Position numbers and translations under genes: made by a program. DNA of 64,000 bases, taken from positions 40,988-104,987 of IMG/VR virus record IMGVR_UViG_3300042731_007944; one strand, written 5' to 3'. The notes beneath the pieces are model-generated. The model saw nothing but the letters and a program-made list of their open reading frames with translations. It searched no databases and was not told where the DNA came from. Positions 7,421-64,000 of the stretch are shown piece by piece. Source of the DNA: a virus. Numbering within the stretch: position 1 is the stretch's first letter; each line of letters opens with the position of its first letter.

Positions 7421-7453
7421 GGGCATCCCCTCCTTATGAAACTGTCTAAAAAC

Positions 7454-7731: not shown

Positions 7732-8829
7732 ATGGAAGTTATTCTTGCATGTGATACAGGGACATCAGAAGATAAAGGGGCCATCATGCCCCTCGGATCA
7801 GACTTTCATCCGAAACGGATTATCTCACATTCCTTCCCTACGTTGGGAAAAATTGGGGAATTTACCGCGCTACCAGGGGATCACTTAGGCGTCTTGCGAG
7901 AGCCACATCCCTATCAAGGCGTCTACAAGGCCCGCGCCCGTGAATTTGGAGCGCGTCTGCATCGAAATTCAAACATCTATAATGATCCCGTCTATCTGCT
8001 CTATGTCTTTGGCATGGTGGCTGATCTGCTGGAAAAAGCCCATATTACAGAGAAGCAAATAGACGTGATGTTTGCGGGCTTTGGGTTCCCGGTCTCACAT
8101 AAAGAAGGACAGGCCGGGCAACTCAGATCCACGTTGCTGCATCGCGGAAAACCGTGGACAGTACAAAAACAAGACGGACGGGCCTATTCTGTCACGTTCC
8201 ACAATGTTGTGTGTGAGACGCAACCGTATTATATGGTCGTTGACCAGATTTTCACCTGGCAGCCGAACGGGACGCTGTCGGCTGAGCGTGGCAAACAGAT
8301 TTTTGCCAACGGGCCGCTATTATTCGGGGATCTTGGGTCAAACTCGAATGATTGGGAATGGGTTCCGTTGTCGCTCGCAAACTCCGAGAACGCCTGTTCG
8401 ATGGGCGGGACGTTCAATTTTTTTCCGAAACTGGCAAAGTTGGCCTATGAAAAAACCCATCAGGATTTAACAGAGTACGATCTCATGTATCAGGTGTTTC
8501 GGAAACGCCAAATCACCTTAAACGGTGTGACGTATGACTTTTCTCAGGAAATCCCGTTGCTCTATCAAGAGGCCGTCAAAGAGTTGGAGGGCGATATTGA
8601 TCTGTTTTTGCGAACCCTGAAAGAAAAGCCTCAGCCTTATGCGATGCGATTAGGCGGGGGTGGTGTCATTAATGGGGAATCGTATTTTCGACAGATCTTT
8701 TCCTCAAAATTCCCTGGCGGAGTGCAGATTGTTGAAGATGACCACGGGAAACCGGCCCCGGTCTGGTCTATCGTGCGTGGAATGGTGAAGAAAAGCGTCA
8801 TTGAGGCGCAAAAGGCAGAGGTACTATAG
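7732..8829 (+). CDS. parM: ParM-like actin-family plasmid segregation ATPase
   Basis: The start is the ATG at 7732, with AAGGAG 5 bases upstream, giving 365 residues. Actin-fold signatures are visible: phosphate-1 loop ACDTGTSEDKG (D8, G10, K15), phosphate-2 loop FGDLGSNSND (D200), and an adenosine-binding LGGGGVING (about 307-315). ParM filaments push plasmid copies apart after capture by ParR-parC. It is followed after one base by the small gene that fits ParR. The presence of an active segregation system implies a low-copy extrachromosomal state. Confidence 0.85.
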   Translation: MEVILACDTGTSEDKGAIMPLGSDFHPKRIISHSFPTLGKIGEFTALPGDHLGVLREPHPYQGVYKARAREFGARLHRNSNIYNDPVYLLYVFGMVADLLEKAHITEKQIDVMFAGFGFPVSHKEGQAGQLRSTLLHRGKPWTVQKQDGRAYSVTFHNVVCETQPYYMVVDQIFTWQPNGTLSAERGKQIFANGPLLFGDLGSNSNDWEWVPLSLANSENACSMGGTFNFFPKLAKLAYEKTHQDLTEYDLMYQVFRKRQITLNGVTYDFSQEIPLLYQEAVKELEGDIDLFLRTLKEKPQPYAMRLGGGGVINGESYFRQIFSSKFPGGVQIVEDDHGKPAPVWSIVRGMVKKSVIEAQKAEVL

Positions 8830-8830
8830 A

Positions 8831-9145
8831 ATGTCGAAAAAACCACTCACTGAAACAGGTCGGATACAGTTTGATCTCCAACCGCACCGACCTGATGATT
8901 ATGCTCGGCTGAAATATTTAGAACACCTCCGGCAAAAAGGGAAATTTGCCGATGGGATGCGGGAACTCATTGATTATAAGATGACACGTTCAACGACTGA
9001 GCAGCGGTTTGACGAGATTAAACGAATGCTTGAGATGGTGTATGAACGAATTTCGTCAGGAACCATAACGTTTACGCCACAGGAACGACAGCAACTCAAA
9101 AAGACGGTTGTCGATCTTGAGGATACGGTCACATTTGGAGTATGA
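8831..9145 (+). CDS. ParR-like adaptor of the actin segregation system
   Basis: 104 residues starting one base after the ParM stop codon. The N-terminal part has the size and pattern of a ribbon-helix-helix DNA-binding domain (a beta-like segment, then two helices), and the C-terminus is helical with a charged tail. ParR proteins bind the centromere and the filament tip. The call rests mostly on size and position. Confidence 0.55.
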   Translation: MSKKPLTETGRIQFDLQPHRPDDYARLKYLEHLRQKGKFADGMRELIDYKMTRSTTEQRFDEIKRMLEMVYERISSGTITFTPQERQQLKKTVVDLEDTVTFGV

Positions 9146-9148: not shown

Positions 9149-9385
9149 ATGACACTGAACGAAAAAGAACTGAACGCCGTGCTAGCCTCAGCTTTGAAAG
9201 ATGCAAAAACGAATCAGATAACCTGGGGGCAAATTCGCACAAAGGTGTATCAACAAGTTGGACAACTCGCCCGGAAATACTATCAAATCGGGATAACGGA
9301 TTCTGAAGGCATGCACACGATAGCGCTGTTTTTCGCCCTGAACTATCAGGTAGACATGTACGAATTCATGCGCTACCTTGCATAA
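9149..9385 (+). CDS. Small hypothetical protein, 78 aa
   Basis: Begins three bases after the ParR-like stop codon and is co-directional with it. The composition is helical and mildly charged, with no recognised motif. Part of the partition operon by position. Confidence 0.5.
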   Translation: MTLNEKELNAVLASALKDAKTNQITWGQIRTKVYQQVGQLARKYYQIGITDSEGMHTIALFFALNYQVDMYEFMRYLA

Positions 9386-9520: not shown

Positions 9521-9792
9521 CCGCTTTCGATCTCTACTGTGAATTGCGACAGCATGACATGAGGGCGCTCTATCATGGAAAGCCCTGTCAAGTGCTGACA
9601 ATGCAATACGAAACACCGAATGAGTTGGGCATCAGCCAAGAGATGCATGACGCTTTACCGGAAGGCCGTACCACGACACTCAGGGTGCGCTATTTCAACG
9701 AATTTTTGCAGGAAGATGACGAGGCGTTGCTGTTTCTGGATGAGTTTGTGAACTGCTCCCGGACATCAATGCCCGGGCATCTATGCCGCTGA
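9517..9792 (+). CDS. Small acidic protein with 3' end replaced by a transposon
   Basis: The frame encodes 91 residues, but the last 14 come from the right end of the IS200/IS605 element. Removing 9748-11494 rejoins codon 77 to ATC AAC CCG TTA TAG, restoring an 81-residue product ending FLDEFINPL. The current protein is therefore an insertion-altered version that may still fold. No family recognised. Confidence 0.6.
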   Translation: MTAFDLYCELRQHDMRALYHGKPCQVLTMQYETPNELGISQEMHDALPEGRTTTLRVRYFNEFLQEDDEALLFLDEFVNCSRTSMPGHLCR

Positions 9793-9900
9793 CGCGGCAA
9801 GCGTCGCCAGCCCGCGACGCAATAAAACGAGAGAGGACACGTAGTCTCGATTTTCGACCAGCCCGCATTTCGGGCATTCATGCACTCGTTGCGACAGTGT
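9748..9900 (-). ncRNA. Probable TnpB omega RNA (reRNA) region and right-end hairpin
   Basis: TnpB guide RNAs derive from the 3' end of tnpB through the right end of the element. Here a hairpin with CCCGG/CCGGG stem lies at about 9757-9776, ahead of the right tip. The 5' boundary is a guess. In the present locus the guide would begin on the minus strand at 9747 (AAACTCATCC...). Confidence 0.45.
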
Positions 9901-10947
9901 TTTCCGTACTGGCTCCCCACAGACGCATACTTGTGAACTGCCTCTCGGGTTGGTCGGGATTCGACGTTTCCCTTGCTCTTTGACTTTATAGGCAACGATA
10001 TTCAGAAATAGGCCCCAGGCCGCGTCTGAAATAGAGAGGTGCAAGCCTGACGTATGACACGCACCGTTCGGCAGATACGTCCCAGTATCATCCTGTTTTG
10101 CCTTTGGACGCCTGAGCATATTTCGGATATTCAGGTTTTCGTGAATGAGATAATCCGTTTGTTTTAAGAGCGCGTTTGCTGTCTTGTGTAAAAAATCCAA
10201 CCGCTGACACTTGACGCGATAATGGGTTTTTTGGATGGCCTTCAAAAGTTTGTACCATTGCGGAGAGCGTTTCGGAGCCTTTGCAAATCGCCGTTGAAGA
10301 CGTTTCAGGCGTTGCTGTGATTTTCGGAAGGCTTTGGGATAGACGCAATGAAACCCGTTTGAGGCATAGACATAATCATTCAACCCTAAGTCAATCGCTA
10401 GAGGTGGCAAGGCGTCTTTAGGCTCTACTGATACTTCTAATTCAGTAGAGAAAGACGCAAACCACTTGCCTCCATCTTGTAAAATCGTCAGAGTTTTGAT
10501 TGTGGCCTCTTCCGGGATCGGGCGATGATACACACACTTCATGTTGCCAACTTTTGGTACATAGAATGAGTCAGAGGGACGTTGCGTATATTGCGGATAA
10601 GTAATTGACGACCACCTGCCACGTTTTTTAAACTTCGGGAACCCAGGCACGTCGCCCTGTTTAACTCGGCGGAAGAAGGCGTCAAAGGCGTTATCCAGAC
10701 GGCGTAAGACATCTTGAAGCACCTGAGAATGGACACCCTTAAACCACGGACGGGCTTTTTTAAGGAGAGGAAGTTGGCGTTTTTGTTCATACCAGGACAC
10801 AGACCGGCCTTCCTGCTCATAGACGTCCATACGTTCTTTGAGTGACCAGTTGTACACATAGCGGCACATCGAAAATTGATTCTTCAGGTTTGTCTGTTGC
10901 GCTTTTGTCGGATAAATCCTATATTTATACGCCTTACGAAGGATCAT
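9781..10947 (-). CDS. tnpB: TnpB RNA-guided nuclease of an IS200/IS605 element
   Basis: From the ATG at 10947, which overlaps the tnpA stop as ATGA, the protein has 388 residues. It starts with the typical MILRKAYKYRIYPTKAQQ. The RuvC-like catalytic acids appear intact: D186 in LAIDLGLND, E270 in LIHENLN and D368 in ENRDY. A zinc knuckle is formed by CVC (341-343) and CPKC (358-361). TnpB proteins are RNA-guided DNases that favour retention of the element at its donor site. No frameshift or stop is seen, so it may be active. Confidence 0.9.
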   Translation of the reverse strand: MILRKAYKYRIYPTKAQQTNLKNQFSMCRYVYNWSLKERMDVYEQEGRSVSWYEQKRQLPLLKKARPWFKGVHSQVLQDVLRRLDNAFDAFFRRVKQGDVPGFPKFKKRGRWSSITYPQYTQRPSDSFYVPKVGNMKCVYHRPIPEEATIKTLTILQDGGKWFASFSTELEVSVEPKDALPPLAIDLGLNDYVYASNGFHCVYPKAFRKSQQRLKRLQRRFAKAPKRSPQWYKLLKAIQKTHYRVKCQRLDFLHKTANALLKQTDYLIHENLNIRNMLRRPKAKQDDTGTYLPNGACHTSGLHLSISDAAWGLFLNIVAYKVKEQGKRRIPTNPRGSSQVCVCGEPVRKTLSQRVHECPKCGLVENRDYVSSLVLLRRGLATLAASAA

Positions 10948-11354
10948 TTGGTTTTTTGATCGGCAATATACCGCGTGACCGTCTCTTCTGAAACGTGTCC
11001 GATAGTTTCCACATACGTTGAGGGGTTCCACAGATGCCCATTCCAGAGACGTTTCTGTAACTCTGGAAATTCAAGCAAGAGGCGTCTCGCAGAAATGCCC
11101 TTCATTAATTTATACATATGCGAGGCAGAGTATTTTGGATGCCCAGACACAAACACATGTACATGATCCGGCATGACCTCCAGTGATTGGATGACAAATC
11201 CTTTTTCTTTTGCGATCTCATGTAACAGTGTCTTGAGTCTGGTATCAATGCCGTTGACCAATACCTTGCGACGATACTTGACCGTCCAAACAATGTGATA
11301 GTTCGCATTATACACGACCGTTCTGGCATAGGTAAACCGTTCCTTGTCTCGCAT
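10944..11354 (-). CDS. tnpA: IS200-type Y1 transposase TnpA
   Basis: 136 residues, the full size for this family. The HUH motif reads HVH (64-66) and the catalytic tyrosine is probably Y114 in PSTYVETIG. These enzymes cut and rejoin single-stranded DNA at subterminal hairpins. Followed by tnpB in an ATGA overlap. Intact. Confidence 0.9.
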   Translation of the reverse strand: MRDKERFTYARTVVYNANYHIVWTVKYRRKVLVNGIDTRLKTLLHEIAKEKGFVIQSLEVMPDHVHVFVSGHPKYSASHMYKLMKGISARRLLLEFPELQKRLWNGHLWNPSTYVETIGHVSEETVTRYIADQKTK

Positions 11355-18244: not shown

Positions 18245-19324
18245 TCAGATCCTCGTCTTCACGCACTCTTTGAAGTGCAGATCCACGGCCCCGTGAAAAT
18301 CCACCCCGGCGAACTGCTGGCGGAAATCCCGAATATTGCGCCAATCACAGAGAAAGAATGTCTCTGGCTCATCATAAAACAGATGGACATACAGTGGGTG
18401 GATCTTTCCGCTCGTGACGATATCCACCACGGCGGCCTGCATGGCAGCGAGACTCGCAATATCGTTCAGCGATTGCACGTCATAGTGCAGCAGGAGATCC
18501 GCTTGCTGCGCATACGCCTTGTGTCGAAACATGCCGGCTGGATTCTCACTCTCCGCCCCGGTGTAGCCGTAGCCTCGCGAGGACGTCCACCAGGCGTTTG
18601 CTTCGAGTTCGCGATAGGATCCCAGATAGAGCGTCGCCGTTTGAAAATACGACAGCGCCCCATCCACCGGGACGATGCGCCAGTACCGGTACGTCTGATC
18701 CAGGTAGAAGATCAGCTTGTGATCCGTCACGGTGATCGCCTGCGAATACGCCGGGCTGCCCCAACTGTCTGAGGAGTTCGCCTGAAGCGTCAACGTGCTT
18801 TGCCCGGCCACCAGATTGTGATTCATCAGGGCAAAGGCCGTCACCTGCTGCGCACTGCCGAGGTCAATCACGATCGGAAACGTGGCTCCTGACCGAAAAA
18901 GACTGTTGGGGTTCAAATTCAGCAGGTTTCCGGCTCCGTATTTCGCCACGGCGAAGAACTGAAAGGTGTCTTCCAGCGTGAAGTCATCGCCGACCCCCGC
19001 CTGCCAGGCGATCTTAACGCCATAATTCAGCGTGGCAAGCGTCGTGAGGGTCGTGACGCCGGTGGCTTCCCAGCCGGAGCTTTCTGAGGTCTTCCAACGA
19101 TAGGTCGCCTGCCCCACAGAGACGCCGGGTGTGATGCTGTCGATCTGGGCGATGTAATCCAGGTTCTGCGCCCCGGCAAACGATCCGGCGGCAAACGCCG
19201 CCGCGCTGCCGGTCCCTCGCGTTTTCTCCACCCCGGAGACGATCCCCCCGGCCTGACTGCCTGCGGCGATCATATCCACGGACGTAATGTAGTTCGTATC
19301 CAGATAGCGCTCAGCGGTATACAT
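18245..19324 (-). CDS. Phage distal tail-like protein
   Basis: 359 residues encoded directly after the tape measure gene, whose stop overlaps its start by one base. The content is beta-rich, with a discoidin-like segment near residues 140-220 (VIDLGSAQQVTAFALMNHN). That pattern is typical of carbohydrate-binding jelly rolls. Probably the first tail-tip protein. Confidence 0.6.
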   Translation of the reverse strand: MYTAERYLDTNYITSVDMIAAGSQAGGIVSGVEKTRGTGSAAAFAAGSFAGAQNLDYIAQIDSITPGVSVGQATYRWKTSESSGWEATGVTTLTTLATLNYGVKIAWQAGVGDDFTLEDTFQFFAVAKYGAGNLLNLNPNSLFRSGATFPIVIDLGSAQQVTAFALMNHNLVAGQSTLTLQANSSDSWGSPAYSQAITVTDHKLIFYLDQTYRYWRIVPVDGALSYFQTATLYLGSYRELEANAWWTSSRGYGYTGAESENPAGMFRHKAYAQQADLLLHYDVQSLNDIASLAAMQAAVVDIVTSGKIHPLYVHLFYDEPETFFLCDWRNIRDFRQQFAGVDFHGAVDLHFKECVKTRI

Positions 19325-21819
19325 CAGCGGCTCCCCCAGCGGGTGGCGGTGGACACGACGCGGCTTTCCTGGGTGCGCTGGGCGTTCGTGATCCGCTTGG
19401 CAAACGCCTCCACGCTGCGCTCGTCCACAATATTGTTGCCTTCAAACACGACGGTCACCGGCGCGGTGTGCGCGGGTGTTGCCGCCTGCGCCTGTACCTG
19501 TGGCGGCTGATACTGTGACCGCGTGGGCATCGTGAGCACGCCTACCCCGCTCGCGCCGTAATACGATCCGCCCCCGGCCAGCGCACTGGCAATGTTCAGG
19601 CCCCCTCCGGCCATGTACTCGCCGCCTCCGGCCAACATCGTCGCCAGGCTCGATCCAATCGCCTGCCCGGTCGTCTTCGCCTGGGAGGTCACGCCCTGAA
19701 GACTCGATCCGATGCCGTCCACGGACGCCACGACTTTGTCCGCCCAGGACGCCATTTCTGGGAACACACTATGCTCATAGGCTTCATCGCCCAACGCCTT
19801 CACCTCTTCTTTTGCGCCAAAAATTTTGTCTTTCAATTGTGTCATGGCGACGCCCACTTTGTCAACCATGCGTGACATGCCTTCACTCACCGCTTCCCAC
19901 GCGCCTGCTAATTCATTTTTCAGCAAATCAATAATGGTCCGGATACTGTCGCCAAGCGTGCCAAACACATCCAAATACGCTTCTTTAAAGCCATAGGCGC
20001 TATCACCCATTAATTCAAATCCGGCAACGACCGCCTGAAACAAGGGCATCGTGATTTTACGCGCCTTCTCGATCCCCCCCGCGATACCATCCAGTACCGG
20101 CCTGATCACGTCCCACGCCACACCGAACGCATCGCCCACTTTTTCAGCGAAATCCACAACTTTCGTCAACTTAGGAATCAATTCTGTGAGCGCCGGGCCG
20201 AGCGTCGTCACGATCTCTTTGGCCGTTGTGAACGCTTTACTCAGGCCCGTTTGCCCGGATTCGTCCGGCGTGGTGTACTTCACAAACACCTCTTTAATCT
20301 GCTCGCCCAGGCCCTTCAGGGTTTCCCAGAATTTCGAGGCCCCGGCTTCAACAGAATCCCAAAGGGTTGCCCCGTGCTCTTCGACATACGTCATCCAGAC
20401 TTCAAACTGTTCTGATAGCGGTCCAATGACGGCCCCGGCAAGTTCCAGGGCTTTATCATGGAGAATACCAAACACCTCATGTAATTTCTCGCTGTTCCGG
20501 CTCCACTCCTCAAATTTGTCAACCAAGGGGTTAATGTAATTTTTGAGGAAATCCGCAAATGTTTCGGCAAATGGTTCGCCGAATGTGATCAAAATGCTAT
20601 TCCAAATACTACCAAGGACTTTTTGCGCTTCTGACGCCCGATCTACCTGACGGGCATAACTGTCCATGTGTGAGTTTGCGCTAATAAATGCGTCCTCAGC
20701 AATTTTGAAAATAGATAAAAAGCCCTCTCCAATAGGCATTGTCTGATCCATTGCCGCTGCTAATGTTGAAATAGCTTTGAGGCCGATTGCTCCAAAAGCA
20801 TCGGTGGCAAGGGTATTTTGATCAACCCCCGCCCTGATAGATTCAACGGACATATCCAGGCCGTTAAACGCCTCGGTGAGCAAATTCATTGTGTTGAACG
20901 AATCCTGTCCGAGGGCATATTGAATCATTTCACCGAGTGAAGAGAAGGAGATCCGGCTTTTGCCGGTGATCGCCTCTAATCTGGCAATGGCTGCCGTTCC
21001 GCCGTCTGATTGTGCCGTCAGCATTTTCGCTGCGGCGGCTAACGCATCCGTTTTGGTTGTCAGGTTGAAATAGGCACTTCCCATCTGCCGCGATGCGCTC
21101 GTGGCCGCTAATCCTCCTGAGATCAGAGCCCCGCCCCAGGCTGTCGCTTGTTCATAGCTGAGCCTCATCACAGCGTTATTTTGCCCCATTGCCTTGTTAA
21201 AATTGCTGATCTCAAGCTCGTTCGCATTCATGCTTTTGCTGACAGCATCCAGGGCAGAGAGCATATTTGCGGTAGAATCAGCGGCGAGTTTAAAAATGGT
21301 CTGGGATTTCCCCATGTGGAGGGCGAGCTTTTCCGTACTACCTCCAAATTTATCAAGTGCAACAGCGCCAATCCCGACTTGACGTGAAAATTCGGCGATT
21401 GACTCAGCGCCTTTGATCCCCATCTGACCAGCAACCTGCGCCACTTCAAGAAGGTTGGCGGCCGTCAGACTCCCAATTGGTTTGGCGAGTTCGCGGATCT
21501 GTTTGCCGAACTCATCAAGGGCATCGCCAGTCATGCCGGTGGTTTTTCCGACTAGCGCGAGGGCGTCATCATACGTTTGGTAGGCATCGACGGCATCAGT
21601 CACAAATTCCGTACTGATGTCCATCATCGAGGAGGCGACATTGCTAACAAGGTCAATAATGCCACCGAAGGCTTTGGTCGCAATAGAGGCGAGTGATGTG
21701 AATGCGCCACCGAGAGAAGTGACGCCCTTAATTGAACCCCCGAGATCCAGGCGGACTTTTACGGTAATTTCATCGACTGTTGCCACTACGTGGTCGTAGA
21801 GCGCCCGTGTTGACGCCAC
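19324..21819 (-). CDS. Phage tail tape measure protein, TP901 family
   Basis: Up to 831 residues. The TP901 core is clear at about residues 45-370 (YQTYDDALALVGKTTGMTGD, IRELAKPIGSLTA, VAGQMGIKGAESIAEFSRQ). Long helices and a hydrophobic segment follow. The protein sets tail length and is ejected with the DNA. The GTG at 21819 directly abuts the U-tract of the upstream hairpin, leaving no room for a ribosome site, so the true start may be a later GTG near residue 12. Confidence 0.9.
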   Translation of the reverse strand: MASTRALYDHVVATVDEITVKVRLDLGGSIKGVTSLGGAFTSLASIATKAFGGIIDLVSNVASSMMDISTEFVTDAVDAYQTYDDALALVGKTTGMTGDALDEFGKQIRELAKPIGSLTAANLLEVAQVAGQMGIKGAESIAEFSRQVGIGAVALDKFGGSTEKLALHMGKSQTIFKLAADSTANMLSALDAVSKSMNANELEISNFNKAMGQNNAVMRLSYEQATAWGGALISGGLAATSASRQMGSAYFNLTTKTDALAAAAKMLTAQSDGGTAAIARLEAITGKSRISFSSLGEMIQYALGQDSFNTMNLLTEAFNGLDMSVESIRAGVDQNTLATDAFGAIGLKAISTLAAAMDQTMPIGEGFLSIFKIAEDAFISANSHMDSYARQVDRASEAQKVLGSIWNSILITFGEPFAETFADFLKNYINPLVDKFEEWSRNSEKLHEVFGILHDKALELAGAVIGPLSEQFEVWMTYVEEHGATLWDSVEAGASKFWETLKGLGEQIKEVFVKYTTPDESGQTGLSKAFTTAKEIVTTLGPALTELIPKLTKVVDFAEKVGDAFGVAWDVIRPVLDGIAGGIEKARKITMPLFQAVVAGFELMGDSAYGFKEAYLDVFGTLGDSIRTIIDLLKNELAGAWEAVSEGMSRMVDKVGVAMTQLKDKIFGAKEEVKALGDEAYEHSVFPEMASWADKVVASVDGIGSSLQGVTSQAKTTGQAIGSSLATMLAGGGEYMAGGGLNIASALAGGGSYYGASGVGVLTMPTRSQYQPPQVQAQAATPAHTAPVTVVFEGNNIVDERSVEAFAKRITNAQRTQESRVVSTATRWGSR

Positions 21820-21866
21820 AAAAAAACCGGACAGACGGAGTGTAGCGGACCCCGTGTTTGTCCGGT
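21820..21866 (-). promoter_or_regulatory. Structured leader/terminator-like hairpin before the tape measure gene
   Basis: Minus-strand ACCGGACA pairs with TGTCCGGT around a GC-rich interior and is followed by seven Ts, 31 bases after a promoter. It could be an attenuator for the tail operon. The other leader elements of this window have the same layout. Confidence 0.55.
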
Positions 21867-21896
21867 AAGAAAATCATGATTTCGTGTGTTGGCAGC

Positions 21897-21925: not shown

Positions 21926-22062
21926 GTGAAAATTTTCACTGTGAAAAGAAAGGCAACTTATTTTTTTGTGCCATAGGGGAAGCGTAAAAAGGCTGACGAA
22001 ATTTGTCAAGTTTTTCTCGCAAAAATTATTATAAAAAATGGGTCTTTTTTGGTAAATATACC

Positions 22063-22092
22063 TTGACAAAAAACCTGTTCATCTGTCAGTAT
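22063..22092 (+). promoter_or_regulatory. Possible promoter reading into the left cassette array
   Basis: TTGACA with CAGTAT after 18 bases, or TATTAT after 21. It lies just before the first cassette boundary, in the place of an integron Pc promoter. The -10 match is weak. Confidence 0.35.
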
Positions 22093-22143
22093 TATCTATG
22101 TTGAGAGTTTAAAGAATAATATTGTTAGCAGGCTTTTGAATAT

Positions 22144-22236
22144 GTGGCGTGTACCGTAGGGGTAACGAGAGGACAGACCTTGTCTCACGTACTCGCGATG
22201 CCGTGAGGCCCGTTGGTTCGATTCCAACCACGCCAC
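22144..22236 (+). tRNA. tRNA-like structure, anticodon undetermined
   Basis: The 93-base segment has a 7-bp acceptor-like stem GTGGCGT/ACGCCAC, a TACC/GGTA D-like arm and a perfect T-arm GTTGG-TTCGATT-CCAAC. A 6-bp variable-arm-like stem CTCACG/CGTGAG is also present. The anticodon arm is not canonical: no 5-bp stem with a 7-base loop and U33 can be drawn. It may be a degenerate or specialised tRNA within the first cassette. Confidence 0.5.
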
Positions 22237-22259
22237 CCACAGAACAAGAAAAGAGGAAG

Positions 22260-22481
22260 ATGATGTCATTAGCAAAGATATTTTTTACCCAGTTAAGACT
22301 ATCGCTTTGTTTGCTTTTTTTGCAACTCGTTTTGAAAATTGTTCCAAAAGATGACGATGAAGGAAAACTCATTATAGCATCAATTGGTGCATTGGCAAAA
22401 ATGGAGTCGGCCTTGTTATCGTCACAACTGCCTGCTAACAAGGCCATGCAAAAGACACAGGCCGATGCCCGCAAAAATTAG
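22260..22481 (+). CDS. Small cassette protein with N-terminal membrane segment, 73 aa
   Basis: The ATG at 22260 follows AAGAGGAAG. Residues about 10-28 are hydrophobic; the rest is mixed helical. The 3' end of the frame lies in attC-1, as typical for cassette genes. No known family. Confidence 0.5.
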   Translation: MMSLAKIFFTQLRLSLCLLFLQLVLKIVPKDDDEGKLIIASIGALAKMESALLSSQLPANKAMQKTQADARKN

Positions 22482-22556
22482 GAAATAACTATATACTGTA
22501 TCGCCCGCTATCAGGTTCACTCTTTGCCTGTGCTTCTGATGGCCGGCCGTTATGAG
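22434..22556 (+). repeat. attC site 1
   Basis: The R'' side GCTAACAAGGCCAT and the R' side ATGGCCGGCCGTTATGAG pair, with a second block ACACAGGC/GCCTGTGC. The centre is variable, and recombination would occur at GTTATGA (22549). Confidence 0.75.
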
Positions 22557-22566
22557 GCTTCGTTAA

Positions 22567-22842
22567 ATGGCAATCCGATTAAGGAAAATAGAAAATACGT
22601 ATGTAGCGTTATGTGCTGTTGAATCAGACGCAAAAGTTGGCGATATTTATCTTGATGATAATATGCACCATGCGCTTTATACGAAATTCGCAATAGATTT
22701 TAATAGTGAGCGGAATTGCGGTATTGTGTTTGATGAAATTGTCGCAAAACTTATGGAGTCTCAAAAGGTTCGTGATGCACAAGAAGAAGCCGAGAGGTGG
22801 AGTGCAGAACGCCGTCATAACGCTCCAAATCAGCAGAGGTGA
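22567..22842 (+). CDS. Hypothetical cassette protein, 91 aa
   Basis: Starts 11 bases after the attC-1 core region; a mixed alpha/beta N-terminus and a glutamate-rich helical C-terminus. No motif is recognised. It shares its cassette with the next gene, which starts four bases after its stop codon. Confidence 0.5.
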   Translation: MAIRLRKIENTYVALCAVESDAKVGDIYLDDNMHHALYTKFAIDFNSERNCGIVFDEIVAKLMESQKVRDAQEEAERWSAERRHNAPNQQR

Positions 22843-22845
22843 CGT

Positions 22846-23076
22846 ATGCGAGAAATAAATTTATTGAAGTGGATGCGAGATCATTGTTTGCGTTATGGCA
22901 GTATTGGAATTGCTGCAAAAAGATTCACTGTCTCGAATATTTGCTATGAATTGTTCATAGACCGCGATACCATTACGACGGAGATTGAAAAAATGGTTGA
23001 AAGTGGTTTGGTAATGTGGTTGTTTGATAAAGATACGCTTGAATTAACAAAAAAAGGCATCCATGCAACCTCATAA
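22846..23076 (+). CDS. Small winged-helix-like cassette protein, 76 aa
   Basis: The pattern LKWMRDHCLRYGSIGIAAK, then RDTITTEIEKMVESGLV, resembles a compact winged helix. It could bind DNA and control the cassette pair. The stop codon lies in attC-2. Confidence 0.45.
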   Translation: MREINLLKWMRDHCLRYGSIGIAAKRFTVSNICYELFIDRDTITTEIEKMVESGLVMWLFDKDTLELTKKGIHATS

Positions 23077-23201
23077 CAATAAAATGCACGTGAGTTTGCC
23101 CGCTGTCAGCAGTTTCCAGCGTTGCACTTCCGCTCACATGTTGTCGTAGTCCAAACGTGGTTGCCCGCTATGGCAAACCACGTGATTTTCAGCGTTATGA
23201 G
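23072..23201 (+). repeat. attC site 2
   Basis: CATAAC at the left and GCGTTATGAGG at the right bound a stem in which GCACGTGAGTTTGCC pairs with GGCAAACCACGTGAT. Confidence 0.75.
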
Positions 23202-23207
23202 GCTTGT

Positions 23208-23399
23208 ATGACACGTCAATTTGAACTGTGGAATCAGGGAAGATGGATGGAAGAATTTCCGGCAGAGATCATTACGAATTCCCGCGCGCCGCAAGGCGGG
23301 GGCTTCCTGATGAGTGGGCCAGATGGAGTAGCCCCGGAATTGTCCCGCAGGCTCCCTGAGCTAAGAAAGGGCGAGAACCCTGAAAGTGAGAAGGGCTGA
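23208..23399 (+). CDS. Short open frame overlapping a structured RNA (doubtful gene)
   Basis: A 63-codon frame follows attC-2. Only its first 25 codons look protein-like. The rest runs through GC-rich sequence that folds well, so the frame may be incidental. Confidence 0.25.
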   Translation: MTRQFELWNQGRWMEEFPAEIITNSRAPQGGGFLMSGPDGVAPELSRRLPELRKGENPESEKG

Positions 23400-23530
23400 C
23401 ACTCGGAAAGGACGAGCTAACCTGTCGTCATAAATTGATAAGAAAGGCGACCCCGGACGAGAGTAACCGGGAAATCTTGAACATATTCCGTGGGGAGTGC
23501 TCCGAGGAGAGAGCCCCGGCTGTGCAGCAT
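23276..23530 (+). ncRNA. Structured GC-rich RNA candidate, possibly an orphan omega (HEARO-like) RNA
   Basis: The stretch has many nested stems: CCGCAAGGCGG, GGGCCAGATGGAGTAGCCC, CCCCGG/CCGG and GGGG/CCCC. It resembles what I recall of the GC-rich hairpin ends of TnpB/IscB guide RNAs. No nuclease gene is adjacent. The identification is from memory of such RNAs and is tentative. Confidence 0.35.
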
Positions 23531-23566
23531 CCAAAAAAAGAATGGCAGCCAAAACAGGAGCGCCAT

Positions 23567-23669
23567 CATAACAAGCAATTTCACCAGACAACGCCCGCCG
23601 TCAGGTGTTTTGCAGATTAGAAACCACGTCGCAAGCGGGCATTGCAGGTGATTTGCGGCGTTCTAATGC
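23567..23669 (+). repeat. attC site 3
   Basis: CATAACAAGCAATTTCACC on the left pairs with GGTGATTTGCGGCGTTCTAA on the right, with GCCCGC/GCGGGC as the inner stem. Confidence 0.75.
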
Positions 23670-23686
23670 CTTCAGCGGAGGATGTC

Positions 23687-24013
23687 ATGTTTGAAAAAAT
23701 AGAACTTACTAAAGACAATCTTTTGGAATTTCTATCAAATAATGTGTGCGCGAAAGACTCTGAATTCAATCTTGAACTATGCGAATCAAAAGGCCGTGGC
23801 CGCAGTGGGCGTACAGTTTTTTATATTCATGGCGAATTGATAAGCCATTTGTGGAAAACATGTCAAATTAATCGAGCCCCTCGGTTTTCCGTATTCTCCG
23901 ATCAAGATGTCATTGAAAGGGCGAATAACTGGATAAAACGAAAAAGAAAGTTGTTGGTTGGGGCATTAGAACAAACGCTTGCAAAAGACCCCAAAGACGC
24001 GGGCGAAAATTAA
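23687..24013 (+). CDS. Hypothetical cassette protein, 108 aa
   Basis: The ATG at 23687 is preceded by GCGGAGGA at 7 bases. A mixed alpha/beta protein with a basic patch (NNWIKRKRKLLVG) near the end. The left half of attC-4 lies in its coding sequence. No known domain. Confidence 0.55.
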   Translation: MFEKIELTKDNLLEFLSNNVCAKDSEFNLELCESKGRGRSGRTVFYIHGELISHLWKTCQINRAPRFSVFSDQDVIERANNWIKRKRKLLVGALEQTLAKDPKDAGEN

Positions 24014-24073
24014 TCTTGTTAACGTCAGCTTCGGTGGCCGCGTCTTTGGGGCTGTTGAAGCGAGGCGTTACAT
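23969..24073 (+). repeat. attC site 4
   Basis: GAACAAACGCTTGC pairs with GAAGCGAGGCGTTAC, and CCCCAAAGACGCGG with CCGCGTCTTTGGGG, one of the strongest stems of the array. Confidence 0.8.
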
Positions 24074-24135
24074 GCCCTCCCCGTAGGCGTAACCGCTCAT
24101 TGAAAACTTAAAAATCTTCCTGAAATCAAAAAAAC

Positions 24136-24186
24136 ATTCAATTTGAATAAATAATACTTGACAATATTCATATTGAATATTATATT
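24136..24186 (+). promoter_or_regulatory. Promoter with palindromic operators inside a cassette
   Basis: TTGACA (24158-24163) and TATATT (24181-24186) are 17 bases apart. The spacer is a perfect palindrome AATATTCA-TAT-TGAATATT. A second palindrome ATTCA-ATT-TGAAT lies at 24136-24148. The arrangement suggests autorepression by the encoded helix-turn-helix protein. Confidence 0.75.
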
Positions 24187-24238
24187 ACATGTGACGCTGA
24201 AAAAGGGAACATAAACACAAATTCAGGAGGATTCAATC

Positions 24239-24535
24239 ATGACAGCTTATGAAAAAAACCAGGCAATGTTAAACAAGCCAAAACAACAGTTATACCCCCT
24301 TGAAAAAGTTTTGAGAAAAGAAGGGTGGGAATACATGTATTGCGACAATACAAGCGAGGTATGGGATGTAAAAGCCCTGCTTGAAAGCGAATGTCCGGCA
24401 TTGCAAGAATTGTGTCGCCCTGAGATGGGAGAAGGTGAGGTCGTCTTTCATTTTCATCAATATTGTTTGCGCAAGGGTTCGCTTGGGGTTGCTGCCTCAG
24501 TGAACACTTTTCGTACTATCAAAACGACCATCTAA
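24239..24535 (+). CDS. Hypothetical protein of a two-gene cassette (possible toxin), 98 aa
   Basis: A ribosome site CAGGAGG precedes the ATG. The product is a small, mixed protein with several cysteines and histidines and no recognised fold. It is followed after 12 bases by a helix-turn-helix gene under an autoregulated-looking promoter, the layout of toxin-antitoxin operons. Confidence 0.55.
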   Translation: MTAYEKNQAMLNKPKQQLYPLEKVLRKEGWEYMYCDNTSEVWDVKALLESECPALQELCRPEMGEGEVVFHFHQYCLRKGSLGVAASVNTFRTIKTTI

Positions 24536-24547
24536 GGGAGATTCGCA

Positions 24548-24958
24548 ATGTATCCACGTATCGCGACAGCAGCGCAGATTATGGCGGCCTTAATGGCCGC
24601 CCTCGGCTGGAAACAAGCCGACGTAGAGCAAGAATTAGGCTTCAACCAGAGCGAAATCAGCAAGCTTCTTACTGGTGATATTGGCTTCACCAAAAAAACA
24701 GAGAAGCTTGTGGATTTATATTTAGAGCATAAGCTTTCTGACGATCAGAAGCGTGAATTTGGATGGGAAATCTTTTTGCAGCTTCATCGCGAAGAAGTTG
24801 TCGATTTGGCGAAAAAAGCCGGATGGTTTCCGCGCTCTGGCAGCAGTTTAGAACTTGATGCGTTTTTACTGCCAGATGGTTTTGAGGCTCCGGCAGTTGA
24901 AGCGTATTCAGAATTATGTAATGTGTTAGACGCTACAAAAATGGAGTATGGCATGTAA
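24548..24958 (+). CDS. Xre-type helix-turn-helix protein (possible antitoxin), 136 aa
   Basis: An N-terminal HTH reads GWKQADVEQELGFNQSEISK with a following helix LVDLYLEHKL. The C-terminal half is acidic and could bind a partner protein. The operators upstream suggest it represses its own promoter. Its stop codon lies in attC-5. Confidence 0.65.
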   Translation: MYPRIATAAQIMAALMAALGWKQADVEQELGFNQSEISKLLTGDIGFTKKTEKLVDLYLEHKLSDDQKREFGWEIFLQLHREEVVDLAKKAGWFPRSGSSLELDAFLLPDGFEAPAVEAYSELCNVLDATKMEYGM

Positions 24959-25056
24959 CAAAGCGTTTCACGGGACTTTGCCCGCCCGCGACGTTTGATT
25001 CAGTTTTGAAACTTGGTTCCGGGGCGGGCAAACCCCGTGAACGCAGGCGTTATAAA
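24954..25056 (+). repeat. attC site 5
   Basis: TAACAAAGCGTTTCACGGG pairs with CCCGTGAACGCAGGCGTTA; inner GGCGGGC blocks also pair. The core is GTTATAA at 25049. Confidence 0.85.
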
Positions 25057-25080
25057 CCTTAGCGCCAACGGAGTACAAAC

Positions 25081-25801
25081 TTGAAAATAGGCCCATACGA
25101 AACAAATCAGATTTACACCGGAGACGCGAGAGCCTTGTCAAAGGAAATCCCTGATGAGTCTATCGACTTAATTTTGACCGATATATCAGAATATAGAAGA
25201 CTATCTGTGGCTTTCAAATTTGGCTCAGAGAGTGTTGAAACCGAATTGCGCCTGTCTTATGTGGCAGGGCCAGCAGTGGCTTTCTGACACAATCTGCGCG
25301 TTGAAAGCGGGGCCTTTGGCGTATCGTTGGGTTTTGGGGTGGTATGCGTCCAACAATATGCAGATGGTCGGCAAGATAGGGCGCAAGATTGCGCCCTGTT
25401 TATGGTACGAGAAAGGCCACAGCAACCCGTTCAAAGCCGTCCGTGAAGTGGTTGACGTGCCGATCCCAGGCAAGAAGCCGCCGTTCAAATGGGCGAAGAA
25501 TCCGAAAGCTCTTGCGTATTATCTCAGCAAGTTTGCAAATGAGGACAGTGTCGTTTTTGACCCGTTTTCAGGCATGGGCAGTTTACCGGCAGTCTGCAAA
25601 AGTTTTGGGATAAATTTTCTTGCCTTTGAACTGGAAGCGGATCGCGCAGAATCAGCGCGTGAACGTTTAGCCCAAACTCCGGTGCCATTGCCTTTTAAAG
25701 TCCTGCAATCAGAGCAAACAAGCTTTGACTGTGGGGTTTATAACAATGGCATGGAGCCGGATTTGAAACCCGCCGCGTCAAGTTTTGCGGCGAACAATTA
25801 A
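25081..25801 (+). pseudogene. DNA methyltransferase (beta-class arrangement), frameshifted and missing its catalytic motif
   Basis: The first frame (TTG start at 25081) gives YTGDARALSKEIPDESIDL, where DPPY should follow but LTDISEY is found. At about 25190 a single-base shift moves the homology to the second frame, which continues YLWLSNLAQRVLKPN and carries the SAM-binding DPFSGMGS. The order, motif IV before motif I, fits N4/N6-adenine methylases of the beta class. Loss of DPPY and the shift make activity very unlikely. It ends inside attC-6. Confidence 0.7.
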
Positions 25802-25848
25802 CAACGGTGGGCGGCGGGCTTCAAACCGCTCATGCCTGCCGTTATAAC
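25738..25848 (+). repeat. attC site 6
   Basis: TATAACAATGGCATGGAGCC pairs with GCTCATGCCTGCCGTTATAA; GGATTTGAAACCCGCC pairs with GGCGGGCTTCAAACC. Confidence 0.85.
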
Positions 25849-25949
25849 GCATATCATACTCAACGTGGGCAGTACAACAAAAAGCTGTAAAAACGTCTTG
25901 CGCTTTCCAGATTGATGCGTTACGATGATTGGAAGAGAGGTATGGTGGC

Positions 25950-26059
25950 CCACACAGCACGGTTGCGCCGAGGTTTGTTCACGCTACTCCTCGTCAAATA
26001 TGGTGTGGCGTTTTGTGATGGTTGGTTGCCTTTGGTCATGGCGCAACCGTCCAGTGTGG
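25950..26059 (+). repeat. Long inverted repeat of unknown role
   Basis: CCACAC-AGC-ACGGTTGCGCC and its counterpart GGCGCAACCGT-CCA-GTGTGG enclose a 70-base loop. The geometry recalls attC but no GTT core flanks it. The rest of 25850-26143 shows no convincing gene. Confidence 0.5.
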
Positions 26060-26143
26060 AGTCAGGGGAGTTGCTCGTATCAAAAATACGCATCGCGCCA
26101 CGCTTCGCGTCGCGCTTATTTGGATTTTCGCCCCAGAAATATT

Positions 26144-26335
26144 ATGCAGTACACAGTAAATTTTTTAGAAAACGATGGAGAATACATAGGGATCTTGACA
26201 GTGAATTGTGATCATGGTGTTAAGGTCGATGAAAGTGATCCCCGTATATTTTATGCCGACAACGTAAGTATTGCCATTGATGAGGAAATTGTTTCTGTTA
26301 AAGATGATAATGGTAATGTAGTATTCAAAGGGTAA
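26144..26335 (+). CDS. Small acidic protein, 63 aa
   Basis: From the ATG at 26144 the product is beta-rich and acidic, resembling small phage or cassette proteins. It ends 7 bases before the HEPN-like gene, so the two may be co-translated. Confidence 0.45.
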   Translation: MQYTVNFLENDGEYIGILTVNCDHGVKVDESDPRIFYADNVSIAIDEEIVSVKDDNGNVVFKG

Positions 26336-26342
26336 ATATAAT

Positions 26343-27002
26343 ATGCCTGTTCCAGATCACGTCATCTTTGGCCCAAATTCCCAAGGCGAGGGAATCACAT
26401 ATGGGCAAGTTCGCGCCCTTGAAGAAAACGATCGTTACTCAGCGCTGAAGCAGAGACTCGATACTTTTCTGATTTCACAAATACACGAACTCGCCAAAGA
26501 GGAGGACGGGCAAAGAAAAGTCTACAGCCCATTTCCATTATTCTTGCTGACATGCATAGCCATAGAGGCTCTCGGGAAGGCATTGTACCGACCCTCCCAG
26601 CCTATGTCTGATAAGGACGCTCAACGTGAAGGCTTCTTTACGGTGTGTGGCAAGATCGATAAACATTTCTCCCGACCGTTGCGTAAGAAGGATAAAAAGA
26701 GACTTGATATGCTTTGGGGAGAAAATATGCAGAAAAAGCCTGAAACGTTGGCAGATGTGATATATCGTTTTGGTCGGCATACTATGGCGCACGGGTTTCG
26801 AGGAAAAGGAGTCTATCTTACCGAAGATAAGAAGATCGAATGGGAATTTATTGACTGTGCGTTATATTTAAATCCTTACTGGTTCTGGCGGACATTCACG
26901 GCTGTATACGAACAGGGATGGGCTGCGTTGTTTGAGAATAAAGAGCCAACGAATACACTAAAACGTTCGGCTGATCAGTATTTGGCAGAAATATTGGAAT
27001 AA
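26343..27002 (+). CDS. HEPN-like protein, 219 aa
   Basis: Mostly helical. Near residue 140 it has RHTMAHGF, an R-x4-H pattern typical of HEPN ribonucleases, preceded by a helix (LLTCIAIEALGKALY) of the kind that packs in HEPN bundles. HEPN proteins act in RNA degradation and phage defence. The match is by motif only. The adjacent 26144 gene could be its partner. Confidence 0.45.
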   Translation: MPVPDHVIFGPNSQGEGITYGQVRALEENDRYSALKQRLDTFLISQIHELAKEEDGQRKVYSPFPLFLLTCIAIEALGKALYRPSQPMSDKDAQREGFFTVCGKIDKHFSRPLRKKDKKRLDMLWGENMQKKPETLADVIYRFGRHTMAHGFRGKGVYLTEDKKIEWEFIDCALYLNPYWFWRTFTAVYEQGWAALFENKEPTNTLKRSADQYLAEILE

Positions 27003-27078
27003 ACCAACAAAAAGGGAAGTAATATTTAAAGGCGTTATAATAATATTGTTATAACCACCTTAGAAGGAGCAGCCAACT

Positions 27079-27402
27079 ATGGGCATGAAAAAACATACAT
27101 ACGTAATGACTGGGATAAAATTGACACCTAAAATGCTTGAGACTCAAATGATTGATATTTTCAGTGACAAACTGCTTCCACTTGTTGAAGGTCATAAAGA
27201 TGTTTCGTTGTCCATTGTTTATGGTGAAGGAAGTAGCGTCTATGCTGGAAAGATTGTTGCTAAAAGTGAACCATATAGCGATGATGTATCACAAGAGCTA
27301 CAATTCCCGTCTCGTCAGGAAGTGGCAAATGAGTTGAGGAAATATGGGTTTAAAATTGAATCCTATTCCGTTAATAACTGGTTTTTCGATATTTGGCGAT
27401 GA
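27079..27402 (+). CDS. Hypothetical cassette protein, 107 aa
   Basis: GAAGGAG precedes the ATG. A mixed alpha/beta product with no recognised motif; the attC follows the stop directly. Confidence 0.55.
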   Translation: MGMKKHTYVMTGIKLTPKMLETQMIDIFSDKLLPLVEGHKDVSLSIVYGEGSSVYAGKIVAKSEPYSDDVSQELQFPSRQEVANELRKYGFKIESYSVNNWFFDIWR

Positions 27403-27404
27403 TT

Positions 27405-27507
27405 ATAACAATGCGTTTCAAGCGACTCCTGCCCGCCACGACGCTTTGGATAAGCTTTGAACTTTAGTTTCAGGCGGGCAGGAGCGCCTGAACGCAAACG
27501 TTAGGGC
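27405..27507 (+). repeat. attC site 7
   Basis: TATAACAATGCGTTTCAAGCG pairs with the right side CGCCTGAACGCAAACGTTAGGG, and CTCCTGCCCGCC with GGCGGGCAGGAG. The core GTTAGGG lies at 27500. Confidence 0.85.
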
Positions 27508-57158: not shown

Positions 57159-58217
57159 TCAATTTCCCAGCACCCCCAGGCCGCGCAAGTACTGCTGCGT
57201 GGTGGTGATGGTTTTGTGTCCGAGTTCTTTCCTGACCCGTTCCAAATCATGATCTTTCTGATACTCTTTAATGGCGTAATAGTGCCTGAAGTCATGTGGA
57301 CTATAGGCATATTTCACGATCCCCTGCTTGTGTAACTGCCTACAGGTTGTGTGAATCCCGCGCCGGATCGAATCCACCTTAAAACCCTTGAACGGCTCCG
57401 GGTAGTCAGGGAGCACACGTAACGACTTGATTAACTCTTTCGACAAGCCACGCTTGACTATCGGTTTCTCCTTCGAGGTACCATAGAGTACCTTTTGACG
57501 CTCATGAATAGAAATCGTCGGCATAATCCCGACACGAACCCCATACTGATAAAACAGCAGAATCATAGGATACTGCCAGATCGCCTTGTCCCTGAGCGTC
57601 TTTCGGATATCGCTCTCTTCCGAGGCATCTCGCCACGTCAACAGCATCTGGAGCAGTGCCTCGACTTCCGACTTTTGCGGAACCCGGTATTTCGGATACA
57701 CCGTCACTTTCGGCAATTTTATGTGGTGAAATGGGTTTGACGGGACATGCCGATCCCGAACGAGTTTGCCATACAATGAGGACACACACCAGATCCGATG
57801 TCGGATCGTCACGGCATGGTTCTGTTTGTCGCTGTGATGATACATCTGATACAAAAAGAGCAGATATTCATCAGCGACCTCTGACGTCACATCCAGAACA
57901 TGCGTGCGCCGGGTATCCAGAAACGTCTTAAAAATCTCATACGCTTTCCGGTACGCTGTCTGCGTCTTTTGCGACTGATAGCGCTGAATCCAGACATCGA
58001 CATACGCGCCCAACGGAAACCGGCGCTTTTCCGCTTCCCGTTCGACTTTCTCTTCTACCCGGCTGTTCGCAATCTTCTGCGCAAATTTCGCCAGGACGTC
58101 TGGATCGACGGTCGTTAAATCGAGTTGATCGATGAGATCGAACGACGTTGACAGTTTATTCAGGATATCGTTCGAGGTCAGGGCCTCACTGCTGTTGTTG
58201 ACGTTGAGTGCGTTCAT
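57159..58217 (-). CDS. int: Tyrosine recombinase (phage integrase family)
   Basis: 352 residues. The catalytic set is complete: R228 (YQYGVRVG), H308-x-x-R311 (SPHDFRHY), H334 (LGHKT) and Y343 (TTTQQYLRG). A SAM-like core-binding region spans about 70-165. It lacks the additional domain of integron integrases. Probably mediates integration of the element. Overlaps the xre gene by 32 bases. Confidence 0.9.
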   Translation of the reverse strand: MNALNVNNSSEALTSNDILNKLSTSFDLIDQLDLTTVDPDVLAKFAQKIANSRVEEKVEREAEKRRFPLGAYVDVWIQRYQSQKTQTAYRKAYEIFKTFLDTRRTHVLDVTSEVADEYLLFLYQMYHHSDKQNHAVTIRHRIWCVSSLYGKLVRDRHVPSNPFHHIKLPKVTVYPKYRVPQKSEVEALLQMLLTWRDASEESDIRKTLRDKAIWQYPMILLFYQYGVRVGIMPTISIHERQKVLYGTSKEKPIVKRGLSKELIKSLRVLPDYPEPFKGFKVDSIRRGIHTTCRQLHKQGIVKYAYSPHDFRHYYAIKEYQKDHDLERVRKELGHKTITTTQQYLRGLGVLGN

Positions 58218-59915: not shown

Positions 59916-60055
59916 ACATAACGCCGAACATCACAAGCCATGTCCGCGCCCCTCACGACGGGTACCGAAGCATGCGAAACCACCAAACCTTTAAGCGAGA
60001 GGAGTATGTTGAAAACTACCGCGCGGACATGGTCTTGTGCATGTTTTTGTTAGCG
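59916..60055 (-). repeat. attC site R1
   Basis: On the minus strand GCTAACAAAAACATGCACAAG pairs with CTTGTGATGTTCGGCGTTATG. Inside, CCATGTCCGCGC and GCGCGGACATGG form a 12-bp perfect stem. Confidence 0.85.
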
Positions 60056-61247: not shown

Positions 61248-61388
61248 GCGCTAACGCCTGCGTTCACAAGCAAAACTCGCGCCCTATGCGGGAGACAGAC
61301 GTTGATGCTAAGATTAAGTTTTATGCGTTGCACGTATGTTCAAACTACAGCGCGCGGGTTTTGTCTTTGTGCAACGCTTTGTTAGGGC
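61248..61388 (-). repeat. attC site R2
   Basis: On the minus strand GCCCTAACAAAGCGTTGCAC at the left pairs with GTGAACGCAGGCGTTAGCGC at the right; AAAACCCGCGCGC pairs with GCGCGAGTTTT. Its right half is repeated exactly at the window end. Confidence 0.9.
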
Positions 61389-62188: not shown

Positions 62189-62842
62189 TTATATTACTGA
62201 CCTATCCCCTGATGTTAGATATTGCTGTCGTCTTTTCTCCCTTTCCTGTAATGCTGCTATAAATGCTGGACGTTGTTGGATGATCCTTACAAGCTCTTCT
62301 TCGGCGAGTTCTCCGGCTAACTCTAAAAGCTCCTCGGTGACAAATGGTTTCGCTTCCGCAGTAATTTCAAATGTATGTACAGGCCCCAAGGGAGTTTGTT
62401 CACCGACCTGCGAAATTTGCATAAGAATACGTTTCTTCAGTAAGCCAACCACCGCAGGATCGAGAAGGGGAAGTAATACAGCATGTTGTTTTTGGAAGAA
62501 AGTAAATTCTCGCAAGACACTCTTCTCTTTTGTATCCAACGTATTAAGCGCATTTTTCACTCCAACAATATGACGTCTTGATGCAAAACGTTTTTTGAAA
62601 GATAATCCAACCGCCCAACCTACATCTACAACAATATATGAAACCGTAATAAGAAATACTCCGCCAAAATAGTTCTTATAGGTAGCAATAATCTGCTGTA
62701 AACCAAAAACAGAAAGCCAGCTTTGAGGGAAAAGCAAGCATATTCCAGAAACAATACACAAAAAGAGTACCATTTTTATAAAAACCTTACTTTTAAGTAA
62801 CTCAGCCGCCTTTATGGCAATATCAAACACTTTTTCTATCAC
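62189..62842 (-). CDS. SieB-like superinfection-exclusion membrane protein
   Basis: 217 residues. Two N-terminal membrane helices (about 22-38 and 58-78) with the segment LFPQSWLSVFGLQQI between them fit the SieB family, which blocks growth of related phages. The C-terminal region is helical and charged, longer than classic SieB. Call from pattern, not from a search. Confidence 0.5.
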   Translation of the reverse strand: MIEKVFDIAIKAAELLKSKVFIKMVLFLCIVSGICLLFPQSWLSVFGLQQIIATYKNYFGGVFLITVSYIVVDVGWAVGLSFKKRFASRRHIVGVKNALNTLDTKEKSVLREFTFFQKQHAVLLPLLDPAVVGLLKKRILMQISQVGEQTPLGPVHTFEITAEAKPFVTEELLELAGELAEEELVRIIQQRPAFIAALQEREKRRQQYLTSGDRSVI

Positions 62843-63935: not shown

Positions 63936-64000
63936 GCGCTAACGCCTGCGTTCACAAGCAAAACTCGCGCCCTATGCGGGAGACAGACGTTGATGCTAAG
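63936..64000 (-). repeat. Partial attC site R3, cut by the window end
   Basis: The 65 bases are identical to 61248-61312, the right half (R') of attC-R2 on the minus strand. The array therefore continues beyond the window. Confidence 0.85.

Follow-up and report, generated by a model that had tools for sequence, protein, structure and literature searches.

An integron cassette array headed by an attI copy in the tail region of a tailed phage whose record also carries an integron integrase gene

Integron-type cassettes lie among the late genes of a tailed phage (Caudoviricetes), in a stretch of 64,000 nucleotides that we call the window and that corresponds to positions 40,988 to 104,987 of the 104,987-base IMG/VR record IMGVR_UViG_3300042731_007944. 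Window and record are numbered separately, and positions below are those of the window unless the record is named. A preliminary description had placed an integron-type cassette array with at least seven attC-like sites at 22122-27507, between the tape measure and head genes of the phage and without an integrase. The array is present and these limits are correct to within a few bases, the first R' box beginning at 22124; seven attC sites were confirmed by R''/R' pairing, by folding, by a covariance model (R1) and by a rule on box complementarity, both described below. Its location also holds, except that about 5 kb of non-cassette genes separate it from the head genes. The absence of an integrase is true of the window only, since the record carries an integron integrase gene (intI) and the array starts with a copy of its attI. 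Genes around the arrays were identified with PHROGs profiles, domains with Pfam and its cut-offs, and the integrase with NCBIfam. The elements concerned are these:

Record 9924-10883, outside the window, plus strand, heading a minus-strand array: integron integrase gene intI (TIGR02249)
21954..22127, plus strand: attI copy and promoter-like stretch, its left end being the inverted first seven intI codons
22124..22555, plus strand: cassette 1, opening GTTAGCA and closing TGCTAAC, with a tRNA-like element and a short open reading frame (ORF)
22433-22555, plus strand: attC of cassette 1 (R1 61.4 bits, training site)
22567-22842 and 22846-23076, plus strand: ORFs of cassette 2
23071-23200, plus strand: attC of cassette 2 (pairing, folding, R1)
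23566-23666, plus strand: attC of cassette 3 (pairing, folding, R1)
23642-24013, plus strand: ORF of cassette 4
23966-24073, plus strand: attC of cassette 4 (pairing, R1; folding without bottom-strand preference)
24239-24535 and 24548-24958, plus strand: ORFs of cassette 5, the second with a helix-turn-helix (HTH) match (HTH_31, 24.8 bits, under the cut-off of 27)
24953-25055, plus strand: attC of cassette 5 (pairing, folding, R1)
25220-25801, plus strand: cassette 6, C-terminal part of a broken N6_N4 methyltransferase (N6_N4_Mtase, 28 bits, cut-off 26.7)
25738-25847, plus strand: attC of cassette 6 (pairing, folding, R1)
25840..26115, plus strand: cassette leader common to both arrays (78.6% over 280 nt to record 7403-7676)
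26343-27002 and 27079-27402, plus strand: ORFs of cassette 7
27403-27506, plus strand: attC of cassette 7 (pairing, folding, R1)

The seven attC sites (22433-27506), recognised by R''/R' pairing and folding, each close one plus-strand cassette; they measure 101-130 nt and have R''/R' boxes of seven bases, L arms that complement each other and central stems that vary. Folding, which the preliminary description had proposed as a check, favoured the bottom strand in most sites: it is the better fold in six of the seven with RNA energies and in five with DNA energies, the exceptions being 23966-24073 under both energy sets and 24953-25055 under DNA energies alone. A covariance-model search had also been proposed. 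The model R1, trained solely on these seven sites, was searched over 104,000 of the record's 104,987 bases and at E<=1 returned 17 matches: besides the seven sites it was trained on and eight held-out ones, the remaining two were training sites read on the opposite strand. All eight held-out matches (E 8e-15 to 8e-7) lie within the array adjoining intI. Moreover, the opening R' box exactly complements the closing R'' box in all seven late-region cassettes and in eight of the nine cassettes on the intI side, whereas shuffled boxes gave on average 1.9 complementary pairs of 16 and reached 15 in none of 200,000 shuffles. In controls at E<=0.1, R1 found eight sites in a stretch of Vibrio phage p16 and only one in a 21-kb stretch of Shewanella prophage M16-3, both known phage integrons, and four in virus Rctr41k; the model is tuned to the sites of its own phage, and a search in the neighbourhood of 16 bacterial IntI relatives and on one viral contig yielded a single site at that threshold. 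The seven attC sites are real, and a reading of the repeats as terminators or ordinary hairpins is rejected on the held-out matches together with the box rule.

The integrase scores 329.8 bits against TIGR02249, above the cut-off of 265; in control genomes the model matched 14 of 14 and exceeded the cut-off in none. It keeps the catalytic residues and the IntI-typical stretch WEWFWVFPS. Taken alone, the late-region array is a CALIN (cluster of attC sites lacking integron-integrases; at least two attC and no nearby intI), intI being about 52 kb away on the same phage record. Identity of the phage IntI to its relatives is at best 47% in bacterial metagenome-assembled genomes (MAGs; 49% across a partial match), 48% in a set of 390 genomes from one phylum (with 122 matching at E<=1e-50), 48% among the matches listed for other IMG/VR contigs and 44% in named phage records. 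In a tree of 18 rows, from which three partial sequences had been removed beforehand, it forms a lone long branch.

The link between intI and the late region is the stretch preceding the first cassette. These 174 nt are 97.7% identical, in reverse complement, to record 9771-9944, which lies between intI and its first cassette and includes the first seven intI codons, and the two copies are identical across the 150 nt closest to the cassettes; the one beside intI ends GTTATGC and the late-region one GTTAGCA. Assigned from position and duplication, this is an inverted copy of the attI region, so that the late-region array possesses an attI of its own. The phage thus has a single integrase and two arrays, each headed by an attI; the second lies next to the tape-measure gene and antisense to it. 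A search with a 30-nt attI piece matched one record. Within the copy, TTGTCA-18-TATTAT (22003-22032) weakly matches a promoter consensus and is a candidate Pc. The arrays also have a cassette leader in common (25840..26115), with further leader similarity of 82% over 67 nt, which fits an old exchange or a common source. An inverted repeat with 20-nt arms (90%) lies in this leader at 25950-26059.

The array beside intI comprises nine cassettes on the minus strand, in the opposite orientation to the late-region array, with eight intact attC and one split attC. It crosses the record ends and stops short of a phage integrase at 57159-58217:

Record 9211-9340, 8798-8898, 8357-8460, 7669-7802, 6392-6532 and 4039-4177, minus strand: attC sites, leading away from intI
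63937..64000, minus strand: half of the split attC, the other half being record 1 to about 80, with three bases missing between
62189..62842, minus strand: SieB-family superinfection-exclusion gene in a cassette (PF14163, 97.3 bits, cut-off 26)
61249..61387, minus strand: held-out attC (R1 39.4 bits, E 6.6e-7)
59916..60055, minus strand: final attC, held-out (R1 52.7 bits, E 3.7e-10)

The window's last 65-70 nt, at this half site, are identical to the attC sequence of record 4033-4102. The record ends are bridged by another IMG/VR record, G001 (42,051 bases), which supplies the three missing bases and then tracks the window from position 64000 down to 22001, differing once in 42,000 bases. The bridged ends fit a circular or permuted genome, which is not proven because the bridging attC exists in three near-identical copies.

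The two arrays differ in what their cargo reveals. Among 11 ORFs of the late-region array, nine had no domain match in the Pfam search, the HTH match fell below its cut-off, and only the broken N6_N4 methyltransferase exceeded one; its N-terminal and C-terminal parts lie in different reading frames (25082-25801). On the intI side, besides SieB, a SocA/Panacea antitoxin (65.3 bits), a methyltransferase-specificity fusion with a restriction-type N-terminus, an AntA antirepressor and a T5orf172 protein exceeded Pfam cut-offs. PADLOC, run on ten proteins, gave clear restriction/methyltransferase models for two and a weak candidate model for the T5orf172 protein; seven of the ten, the SieB and SocA proteins included, had no model. 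Since the late-region cargo above cut-off is the broken methyltransferase only, the idea of a defence platform rests on the intI-side array. Two candidate RNAs in the late-region array did not hold. The tRNA-like element at 22145-22239, the first item of the first cassette, was called tRNA-Gly by ARAGORN and fell under the Rfam gathering scores (best tRNA-Sec, 23.9 bits against 47), so it is kept as tRNA-like. The cassette at 23205-23565, suspected by eye to be a structured RNA, has a fold z-score of -0.30; it had no plasmid or phage match and a single 25-nt match among 385 genomes. An int-alpA RNA (Rfam RF02996) was found within an intI-side cassette (61104-61174, minus strand).

The preliminary description regarded the embedding of such an array in a phage as unusual, and in this it is overtaken by published work: in the available text of Qi et al. 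(2023), 10,705 phage genomes contained three complete integrons, one lone integrase and 17 attC clusters, and IntI1 recombined five of six attC sites tested from CALINs of virulent phages (PMC9892861). There, Shewanella prophage M16-3 (vB_SspM_M16-3, MZ568829) is described with an integron and an attC cluster, each with an attI, the cluster lying among tail, scaffolding and terminase genes (PMC9892861). Like the phage studied here, M16-3 has one IntI, encoded on the plus strand, with a minus-strand array of its own, and a second, attI-headed plus-strand array, which in our reanalysis lies between minus-strand baseplate and tail-completion genes:

MZ568829 14473-17000 and 33160-38737: the M16-3 array regions, the second running antisense inside tail genes
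KX853513 4680-10101: intI-like gene and attC region of virus Rctr41k

In both phages the attI region has been copied inverted to the head of the second array (151 nt at 87% in M16-3). M16-3 differs in being P2-like (Peduoviridae), in its Shewanella-type IntI (36% identical to the IntI studied here), in its other cargo and in a broken phage integrase, because of which it is held to be cryptic. Its arrays have cassettes in common at 99.1% over 424 nt and 99.7% over 334 nt; the sharing in our record is older. No mention of this sharing in M16-3 was found in the available text of PMC9892861, and in a term search of the M16-3 genome paper (PMC8541194) the words integron, attC and cassette were absent. 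The two are different phages, no Shewanella record being among 13 terminase matches.

Other known cases resemble the present one in part. Vibrio anguillarum phages p16 and p42 and a P1 isolate with a class 1 integron are temperate phages with an IntI, and p16 and P1 carry cassettes too; as far as the available text describes them, what they hold was captured from a known host integron or a class 1 integron and sits at one IntI-side location (PMC9892861), and their IntI are 39-44% identical to that of our phage. The virulent phages TJE1, P12002L and PH101 likewise have attC arrays, without a phage integrase in that description (PMC9892861), whereas our record encodes the integrase as well. The virus Rctr41k (KX853513) has an IntI-like protein (38.6%) followed directly by four R1-positive sites ahead of the terminase, and differs in its single array, on the strand of intI, in its annotation as merely 'integrase-like' and in being a partial genome. 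Among the matches listed, in a search that covered few subscription papers, no other paper centred on phage-borne integrons was found. Phage-borne integrons are thus a known kind, and the arrangement, in which the phage has its own integrase, two arrays each with an attI, one of them antisense to the late genes, and cargo for phage competition, is a variant with one published, little-analysed precedent. Since M16-3 shows the same layout, the two-array design recurs; the main new point is this one layout in two phages without detected terminase similarity.

The attC sites, the attI copy, the integrase with its catalytic residues, the cassette boundaries and the phage context were observed directly, and the late-region cassettes are probably the second array of an integron owned by the phage. 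This reading draws on the IntI above its cut-off, the held-out R1 matches, the box rule at 15 of 16, the attI copy, the common leader, the phage genes flanking both arrays, the agreement of G001 and the layout of M16-3. We suggest that both attI sites are served in trans by IntI. The primary site, next to intI, heads the nine cassettes on the minus strand; the other, the 174-nt copy directly upstream of the tape measure, heads the seven on the plus strand, which lie antisense to the late genes. Cassettes would enter at G|TT as a folded single-stranded attC recombines with attI, and could be excised and moved from one array to the other; their antisense placement may allow them, as with the 'moron' genes of prophages, to be read independently of late transcription in the lytic phase. 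What we infer is that the integrase recombines, that it uses the second attI in trans, that a promoter is present, and that the cassettes are expressed in lysogeny and benefit the phage. Several points weigh against this account. The promoter match is weak, with nine such sites across the region against 4.7 in shuffles. The cassette common to the arrays is just 79% alike, so recent exchange is not demonstrated. One of the 16 box pairs fails, that of the cassette between the split attC and 61387. G001 terminates within the attI copy, so that the join of array and tape-measure gene comes from a single assembly with a 174-nt repeat. Finally, the searches made turned up no close relative, whether carrying the array or lacking it.

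Of the alternatives, the one that survives best is that general recombination captured and duplicated part of a host's chromosomal integron, leaving the late-region array a fossil with respect to IntI. The copied segment does reach into the coding sequence of intI, which would not be brought along by the insertion of cassettes alone, the methyltransferase cassette gene is broken, and captured integron pieces are published in Vibrio phages (PMC9892861, available text); since IntI reads intact, the boxes are complementary in all seven late-region cassettes and the 150 nt of attI nearest the cassettes are identical between copies, we regard passive cargo of this kind as unlikely. Less probable still is an assembly chimera in which repeats joined a bacterial integron to a phage contig: although integron repeats stand at both record ends and at one end of G001, the part 22001-64000, with array and head genes, recurs in that second record with one difference, and phage genes continue beyond the integron parts, those for replication to the right of intI and those for the tail on the left side of the late-region array. 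That the repeats are phage terminators or other hairpins is scarcely credible, for while hairpins between small genes are common and 23966-24073 lacks the usual strand preference, the box rule, the attI copy, the held-out R1 matches solely beside a true IntI and the R1 matches in known integrons all speak for attC.

Relatives of the phage are few. In IMG/VR no tape-measure relative was found and the capsid had one near-identical record only; the best phage match of the terminase is 24% identical, and in the phylum of one IntI-bearing MAG none of 395 genomes matched it at E<=1e-20, in a search without a positive control. As a tentative guide to the host, R1 matched four of 390 genomes at E<=1e-5 and, at E<=0.001, none of three genomes that carry IntI relatives. 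In IMG/VR, an alignment-based scan confirmed at least 364 of 599 stretches as IntI relatives, possibly including other tyrosine recombinases, and the counts that follow use the best 80 of these loci, in which some contigs may be bacterial. R1 at E<=0.1 gave 16 matches there. A scanner for attC-like sites is noisy on single hits (744 real against 504 shuffled, with palindromes liable to be counted on each strand); combined with the box rule it found at least one linked pair in 26 of the 80 loci, against one in shuffled copies, and at least two links on one strand in 12, against none. A PHROGs sample of 20 proteins, taken from 14 linked loci of which four had one link and 10 belonged to the 12 with at least two, gave terminase or tail matches in L114 and L115 (at least two links) and in L073, L105 and, weakly, L044 (one link); seven other loci had replication, partition, integrase or methyltransferase matches, and L083 and L093 had none among the proteins sent. 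L114 (IMGVR_UViG_3300034109_000875) is a phage contig in which tape-measure and tail-fibre genes accompany an IntI and numerous attC-like sites linked by the box rule. A search for a second attI copy within about 10 kb met a repeat in only two of the 80 loci, L064 (223 nt, 100%) and L050 (84 nt, 93%).

The surroundings of both arrays are those of a phage, with PHROGs E-values of 1e-50 for the capsid, 1e-34 for the portal, 7e-47 for the terminase and 2e-14 for the tape measure. Phage genes flank each array on both sides, which sets them apart from a sedentary chromosomal integron. By PHROGs, a tail fibre gene is likewise on the minus strand, and DnaB and exonuclease genes are in the left part of the record. 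The main neighbours are:

19324..21819, minus strand: tape-measure gene, left neighbour of the late-region array (PHROGs, best E 2e-14)
33025, minus strand: head-morphogenesis-like gene (PHROGs, as for the next six)
35060, minus strand: minor tail gene
36709, minus strand: adaptor gene
41574, minus strand: capsid gene
43050, minus strand: protease gene
44941, minus strand: portal gene
50453, minus strand: terminase gene
57159..58217, minus strand: phage-type tyrosine integrase, distinct from the integron integrase, close to where the intI-side array ends (phrog_1, 63.1 bits)

The roughly 5 kb to the right of the late-region array, before the head genes begin, hold mainly plus-strand genes without attC (at 27.6-32.1 kb, an SNase lipoprotein and unknowns, with no R1 match). 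G+C is 0.39-0.50 for windows starting at 21.5-31.0 kb against 0.52-0.56 for those starting at 31.5-35.5 kb, and as it stays low past the last attC, the foreign-looking stretch is longer than the cassette array. Elsewhere there are a transposase gene (9781-11031, minus strand, phrog_506), a c-di-GMP-I-GGC riboswitch match (2363-2439, minus strand) and a 921-aa late gene with an internal direct repeat (39947-40278 and 40769-41100, 77% over 332 nt). A terminator-like hairpin with a T run, noted by eye and not reported by a scan, stands on the minus strand at 21827-21870, directly before the tape-measure gene.

The preliminary description suggested that the phage could carry cassettes, which is plausible; the present results shift the view from a phage merely carrying cassettes to one that owns the collecting machine, with two loading places. 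Antiphage cassettes have been reported in bacterial integrons. We give somewhat less than an even chance to the broader proposal that this is a recurrent design, a phage-owned integron with one integrase and an inverted second attI-headed array antisense in the tail region, whose exchangeable cassettes would make it an evolvable locus for genes of phage-phage competition and host manipulation, and that it arose at least twice, here and in M16-3. Nor is it a lone curiosity, given the dozen IMG/VR loci with two or more box-linked attC-like pairs on one strand near an IntI. The single IntI, two attI copies and 15 intact attC are material directly open to test, and, if the system is active, such phages could sample the cassettes of bacterial integrons, pass them on and deploy them against rival phages.

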